From Pyrococcus sp. ST04 (lineage in GTDB: Archaea > Methanobacteriota_B > Thermococci > Thermococcales > Thermococcaceae), in assembly GCF_000263735.1 (NCBI RefSeq), contig NC_017946.1:1281348-1345347 (forward strand): a stretch of 64,000 bases of DNA, written 5' to 3'. Positions 61,963-63,282 of this stretch are shown here, piece after piece; positions within the stretch are counted from its first letter, which is position 1, and the number at the start of each line of letters is the position of its first letter. Made by a program: the position numbers and the translations under genes. A model generated the notes under the pieces. It saw only the letters and a list, made by a program, of their open reading frames with translations. It searched no databases and had not been told where the DNA came from.

Positions 61963-63282
61963 TTACAAGTTCTCAACAAGTCTAGCTCCTTTTTCAGTAA
62001 GCTTGTAATAAATCCTCTTTCCAACCCTGTATGCTTCCTCTATCAAGCCAAGCTCTATAAGCTCCTTTATATGCTGATGAACAGCCTGATACTTTAACGG
62101 TTTGCCTAGTGCCTTCCAAATCTCATAAGCGTACATTTCCTTTTCCCTAAGTATCTTGAGTATCTCAAGCTTCGTTCCTCCTATGGAGAATTTCTCCCTT
62201 CCACCCTCACCTGTCTTCAGCCCAGATCCAGTCACGACGAGAACAACTTTATCTCCCCTCTCTATTATACCTGATTCAACGAGTTTCAATAATGCTGGCA
62301 TAACTACAGCCGAAGAGAGTTCTGCAAATATTCCTTCATTTGCCAAAAGCTTTTCCCCACTATCGATCTCACTTTCCTCCACCACAACGGCGGTTCCATT
62401 GCTATCTCTAATAGCTCTTACAGCCTTTGATTTCATTAGGGGATTCTTAACAAACAATCCAAGAGCTTTCGTTTCCCTGCATTCTTTAGTTATTCCAAGA
62501 ATCTCAGCAGCTATAGGATTGCATCTATCTACCTGCACTGCAATCAGTCTGGGGATATCTTCAATGGCTCCTATTTCAACGAGTTCCTTGAATCCCTTAT
62601 AGATTGAGTAGAGGTAACTTCCACTACCCGTTGGTACTATGATATGGGTAGGCTCTATTTCTTCCCAAAGTTCAAATGCTATCGTTTTCTGTCCCTCCAG
62701 TCCTATTATGTTGTCCTCAGGAGTAACATTATAGAGACCGTTAAGCTTTGCAACTTCCCTTGCATAATATATGGCATCATCGACACTTTCACCATATCTG
62801 AGTATTCTTGCCCCAAAAGCTATCATCTGAATAAGCTTTCCTTTGTCAACTTTCCTGGGAACTACGACGAAGGCTTCCTTCCCCGCCCTTGCAGAATAGG
62901 CAGCAACAGAGGCAGCAGCATTCCCATCACTCGCAACTATAAAGCCGTTACTCGCATAAGGTAGACCGTAAGATATCGCCACTGTCGCAAGCCTATCTCT
63001 AAAGGATCCCGTCGGATTCCTTGTCTCATCCTTAATGTAAACTTCAACTCCAAGTTTTTCACTGATTCTTGCCTTTATTAGAGGAGTTCCTCCTTCTCTC
63101 AAGCTTATTATCTTCTTCACCTTGGGCAAAAGTTCCCTATATCTCCAAACACCAGGAATTCTTCTCCTCCACTTCTTAACATCAACGTTTGAATACTCAT
63201 ATGTAATCTCAAGCTCCTGGCCACAAATACAGAAGGGGGGAATTATTTCCTTATATTCCCTTCCGCACCTAGGACACTTCAT
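61963..63282 (-). CDS. threonine-synthase-like protein without PLP lysine, fused to a winged helix
   Basis: 439 residues in three parts. Residues 1-25 are a zinc-ribbon start (CPRCG...CICG). Residues about 45-365 are a fold-type II PLP domain of the threonine synthase type: [25 protein letters not shown], and the glycine loop [18 protein letters not shown]. The family sequence is NPTGSFKDR, with the lysine forming the Schiff base; here the codon is AGA (Arg). Residues about 370-439 form a winged helix ([53 protein letters not shown]). It is probably a regulator that uses a dead enzyme as sensor, not an active threonine synthase. Confidence 0.8.

Follow-up and report, generated by a model that had tools for sequence, protein, structure and literature searches.

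A gene of Pyrococcus sp. ST04 that is related to threonine synthase (TS) encodes a protein in which arginine, Arg95, occupies the place of the Schiff-base lysine and a PadR-type winged helix follows the enzyme fold at the C terminus. We suggest that this protein is probably a one-component DNA-binding regulator, in which the non-covalent pocket of a fold-type II PLP enzyme would act as the predicted sensor. Coordinates refer to the window, the 64,000-nt stretch of NC_017946.1 (1,281,348-1,345,347) that was analysed, and the gene is organized as follows.

61963..63282 (-): whole gene, 439 amino acids, with a four-cysteine N terminus, a TS-like PALP domain, a flexible linker and a PadR-type winged helix (open reading frame, domain searches and model)
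63193..63282 (-): residues 1-30, zinc-ribbon-like N terminus with four cysteines, C3, C6, C18 and C20 (sequence)
62215..63114 (-): residues 57-356, fold-type II PLP-enzyme domain (PF00291, AF2 and Foldseek)
62992..63033 (-): residues 84-97, 14-residue motif (alignment)
62998..63000 (-): Arg95 codon, AGA, aligned with Lys61 of T. thermophilus TS (alignment and codon reading)
62908..62931 (-): residues 118-125, SDGNAAAS loop, with Asn121 kept and D119 and A122 as the equivalents of T85 and T88 (alignment)
62701..62724 (-): residues 187-194, with Glu189 and Gly194 where true TS has Ser155 and Arg160 (alignment)
62617..62634 (-): residues 217-222, PTGSGS phosphate loop (alignment)
62215..62232 (-): residues 351-356, TGSGLK, with Thr351 in the place of Thr317, which contacts the PLP ring (alignment)
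62182..62214 (-): residues 357-367, linker from the putative sensor to the winged helix, pLDDT below 50 at 358-366 (model)
61966..62181 (-): residues 368-439, PadR-type winged helix (profile matches and model)
62053..62091 (-): residues 398-410, recognition helix (model and conservation)
61999..62043 (-): residues 414-428, wing (model and conservation)

The DGNAAAS and PTGSGS loops and the C-terminal winged helix that the sequence-only reading had described were all present, as was a four-cysteine N terminus. The match to PF00291 (238.7 bits) and the AF2 model of the whole protein (mean pLDDT 91.6), for which the top Foldseek matches were threonine synthases (TM score by target, 0.84), establish the fold-type II PALP fold. 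Three of the N-terminal cysteines, C6, C18 and C20, were found in 64/64 orthologues and C3 in 63/64; the cluster also occurs in true TS with the same N-terminal extension and is a predicted, zinc-ribbon-like zinc site. In the open-access literature we found neither a description nor a test of this protein.

Arg95, which had been noted at the outset as a substitution for the PLP lysine, lies in NPTGSFRDR, at the position of the Schiff-base lysine in the NPTGSFKDR motif of TS. In our census the gene was detected in 67 of 94 Thermococcaceae genomes, fragments counted, and was missing from about 27. Arginine was present in 63 full-length orthologues, comprising 59 from Thermococcaceae and 4, of 418 amino acids, from a second family (f2) of the same class, a distribution that excludes chance or sequencing error and, given the accompanying winged helix, supports assignment as a regulator. 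The only lysine exceptions found were two genomes (G010 and G011) of a Palaeococcus-like genus, g2, of which the third genome (G009) has arginine; Palaeococcus and Thermococcus are used here as inferred genus assignments. The expectation that arginine and winged helix always occur together was upheld in one direction: arginine was seen at site 95 solely in winged-helix-bearing sequences, and in no inspected TS-like paralogue lacking that domain, but two winged-helix members carry lysine. Those two members and the loss of the gene from about 27 of the 94 genomes count against a regulatory role, the former indicating that arginine is not essential in every lineage and the latter that the role of the gene is dispensable. 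A scan of genome contigs returned only other TS-like genes, nearly all of them bacterial ThrC, and phage and plasmid records gave, among the matches listed, TS-domain matches only. A separate family of TS-like paralogues in Thermococcaceae (L166, L169, L172 and L175), with NPTWSFKDR and a PTSSGG loop, is also filed near threonine synthase.

In a tree computed after removal of both the winged helix and the trait column, all winged-helix members grouped together (bootstrap, 100; SH-aLRT, 99) and are monophyletic, with the lysine-bearing g2 pair nested within the arginine clade, a topology explained by two changes, a basal replacement of lysine by arginine and a later return to lysine in the g2 pair. 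Across the clade, Arg95 is specified by six codons (AGA, AGG, CGA, CGC, CGT and CGG), of which the CGN codons are not one step away from lysine, and pairwise dN/dS values of about 0.03 to 0.11 indicate strong purifying selection. This combination suggests that arginine itself is maintained, beyond the mere absence of lysine, and lends further support to a regulator. It is scarcely conceivable that the gene is a decaying pseudogene; a frameshifted copy and gene losses in Thermococcus might be read in that way, but the low dN/dS values rule out decay, 92 positions are near invariant in the clade, and the selection signal refutes the proposal clade-wide. The frameshifted copy belongs to a complete genome (G077), in which the orthologue is split into two overlapping open reading frames (L152:3034-4286).

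The pocket was compared with those of 19 true TS sequences by using T. thermophilus numbering, in which we take T85, T88, S155, R160 and N188 to be the substrate-phosphate contacts of the T. thermophilus complex. Their equivalents in the clade are D/N119, A122, E189, G194 and S220; the protein encoded in the window has D119, A122, E189, G194 and S220, position 220 is still Asn in the f2 branch, and position 189 is Ala in g2 genomes. The PLP-contact positions Asn121, the phosphate-loop glycines and Thr351 are kept, and these residues are compatible with PLP binding, which we infer from them. Change at the five phosphate-contact positions, together with retention of the cofactor contacts, supports a regulator, and the former disfavours an O-phospho-amino acid as ligand. 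The regulator with a fold-type II sensor put forward by the sequence-only reading appears likely from sequence evidence, but its suggestion of an O-phospho-amino acid among the possible effectors fares poorly. Clade invariants include D85, T87, R88 and C254; the first three are shared with one lysine-bearing f2 paralogue and are therefore not unique to the arginine clade.

The name under which the protein is filed implies a different function. It gives a full-length match, winged helix included, to NCBIfam NF004170 (PRK05638, "threonine synthase"; 798 bits against a cut-off of 421), and this equivalog match, along with the TS fold in the structural comparison, favours an active threonine synthase. 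However, the score against TIGR00260 (thrC) was 160.6 bits, below the cut-off of 167.1, compared with 366 bits for a separate, intact ThrC in the same genome, encoded at G000:C1:1025540 beside thrB, whose existence the sequence-only reading had proposed should be checked. In 38 of the 94 genomes, including G010 with its lysine copy, the gene is kept and no thrB scores above the cut-off, a pattern that also supports a regulator. Because the lysine has been lost, the substrate-phosphate positions have changed, an intact thrC lies elsewhere and these 38 genomes have no such thrB, threonine synthase activity is very unlikely. Presence of the gene and presence of thrB showed no clear association (Fisher p = 0.063 overall and 1.0 in the largest genus, with kinship ignored). 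In the same genome, a further PALP gene (L004:1441-2370; G000:C1:1697196-1697966), resembling cysteine/O-phosphoserine sulfhydrylase, is frameshifted near a TTTTTT run, so that it is a pseudogene unless the frameshift is an error of sequencing.

A PLP enzyme with a new lysine-independent or weak activity, in which the winged helix would serve autoregulation or localization, is a more tenable proposition than threonine synthase, but still a doubtful one. Retention of the cofactor-contact residues and the regaining of lysine in one lineage would suit such an enzyme. Against it, no clade-specific invariant lysine that might stand in for the lost residue was found among the clade orthologues, a substitution that the sequence-only reading had named as refuting its proposal, and we know of no fold-type II enzyme shown to turn over without its Schiff-base lysine.

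The winged helix, modelled alone (pLDDT, 92.4), resembles PadR, ArsR and MarR folds; the clade winged-helix profile matched solved PadR structures (E = 9e-9). Against PF03551 (PadR), for which the cut-off is 27, the domain from the window scored 24.7 bits and two orthologous domains scored 40.8 and 45.0. The initial description of the domain as PadR/ArsR-like was correct as to the winged helix and, from profile and fold matches, can be narrowed to PadR type. The PadR match and the confident models of the winged helix and of the whole TS fold all favour the regulator. In the recognition helix, Q399, A400, Q403, H404 and L408 are invariant in 64 orthologues, and G421, Y425 and Y426 of the wing are invariant in orthologues of both families; this invariance, which extends to the deep f2 branch, likewise favours a regulator and, with the models and profile match, argues for predicted, conserved DNA recognition. 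Winged-helix sequence and fold are shared with PadR regulators (PDB 5dym, 9qbc and 5x11), but here the winged helix trails an enzyme fold at its C terminus, and the chain ends at residue 439, right after a short post-wing helix, without the C-terminal dimerization helix of PadR.

The genes on either side of the gene in the window are as follows.

63287..64000 (-): aCPSF1, of which the window, ending here, contains the C-terminal part, 4 nt upstream (neighbour mapping)
61271..61948 (-): pyrH, archaeal UMP kinase, 14 nt downstream (neighbour mapping)

Co-transcription with aCPSF1 is likely. The placement between aCPSF1 and pyrH first noted holds here, but pyrH is next downstream in only 3 of 4 mapped Pyrococcus genomes and is not conserved in that position outside Pyrococcus; the wider conserved order is psmB, aCPSF1 and the Arg95-protein gene. 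In other genera the gene is followed by an EMC6-like membrane protein gene and rpiA. The EMC6-like protein (a weak match) is conserved, has 108 to 125 amino acids and lies between the gene and rpiA in many Thermococcaceae (L123:7466-7819). In Palaeococcus-like genomes the gene ends a polyamine cluster (L113:4809-8063) with an aminopropyltransferase gene in all and genes for pyruvoyl-type arginine decarboxylase, SAM decarboxylase and bpsA in some; in G009 it overlaps the aminopropyltransferase gene by 4 nt. The lineage with this cluster is the one in which lysine returned. In f2 the gene is divergent from, and 33 nt apart from, Gins23 and a putative MCM-like gene, named by sequence reading. No single pathway is prominent among the neighbours, and the polyamine link is a lead only, bpsA being nearly universal and adjacent to the gene only in Palaeococcus.

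The tight psmB/aCPSF1 operon, found in nearly all mapped Thermococcaceae outside Palaeococcus, raises the prospect that promoters are not the target of the winged helix and that the protein instead assists its operon partners, for example aCPSF1, a nuclease of termination, or has RNA or protein as its binding partner. We consider this improbable. The gene is sited elsewhere in Palaeococcus and f2, the invariant residues fall on the recognition helix and wing, and, of the approximately 27 genomes without the gene, those examined retain psmB-aCPSF1 in its absence: among 19 genomes, 17 outside Palaeococcus keep the pair without the gene, several having the EMC6-like gene and rpiA directly after aCPSF1, and 2 Palaeococcus genomes keep the pair and have their own gene copy located elsewhere. 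The psmB leader contains BRE/TATA and a strongly conserved TTCTTCTRTTCT element (e.g., L123 and L231), which we considered as an operator and rejected, since genomes that have lost the gene conserve it just as well; this negative outcome of the operator search counts against a regulator. Inspection by eye of the 33-nt f2 intergenic region and of the sequence preceding the polyamine genes in Palaeococcus revealed no palindrome in common.

The DNA binding, dimerization, ligand binding and regulation that we infer for the Arg95 protein would have arisen from a duplicated threonine synthase that lost its Schiff-base lysine and substrate-phosphate site and acquired a C-terminal PadR-type winged helix. 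Most likely, the enzyme fold thereby became a ligand-binding, dimerizing sensor in which the internal aldimine no longer forms; its probable non-covalent occupant is PLP, an adduct of PLP with an amino acid, or some other small metabolite, and the state of the ligand would alter the geometry of the winged helices on DNA via the short linker. A bolder proposal, which we put forward tentatively and consider rather unlikely, is that loss of the lysine was purposeful, such that a pocket with no internal aldimine would capture, as its effector, either free PLP or the external aldimine that PLP forms with an amine or a free amino acid; if true, the protein would be the first fold-type II, lysine-free transcription factor to sense PLP adducts, and an archaeal answer to MocR. 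Like bacterial MocR/PdxR, it fuses a PLP-enzyme-derived domain to a winged helix. In contrast to the fold-type I aminotransferase domain and N-terminal GntR winged helix of MocR, the Arg95 protein has fold type II, a C-terminal PadR/HTH_5-type domain and no Schiff-base lysine, and the distinction from MocR drawn from the first reading is sound; with neither tested MocR feature present, the protein appears MocR-like in layout only. It shares with ThrC (TIGR00260; PDB 6cgq, 2d1f, 1uim and 1v7c) the fold, the N-terminal cysteine cluster of archaeal ThrC and the cofactor-contact positions, and differs in the missing lysine, the changed phosphate positions, the added winged helix and the absence of thrB linkage.

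In summary, dozens of archaeal genomes contain a "threonine synthase"-family match without the required residue, under a family name, NF004170/PRK05638, that asserts an activity made very unlikely by the lysine-to-arginine change, and this can mislead models of amino acid prototrophy. The natural reversion from arginine to lysine in Palaeococcus offers a ready comparison for the role of the lysine. If the protein is a regulator, it would give the Archaea, from which MocR has been reported absent (PMC5320631), a counterpart of MocR built on fold type II, and both points are testable in genetically tractable Thermococcales.
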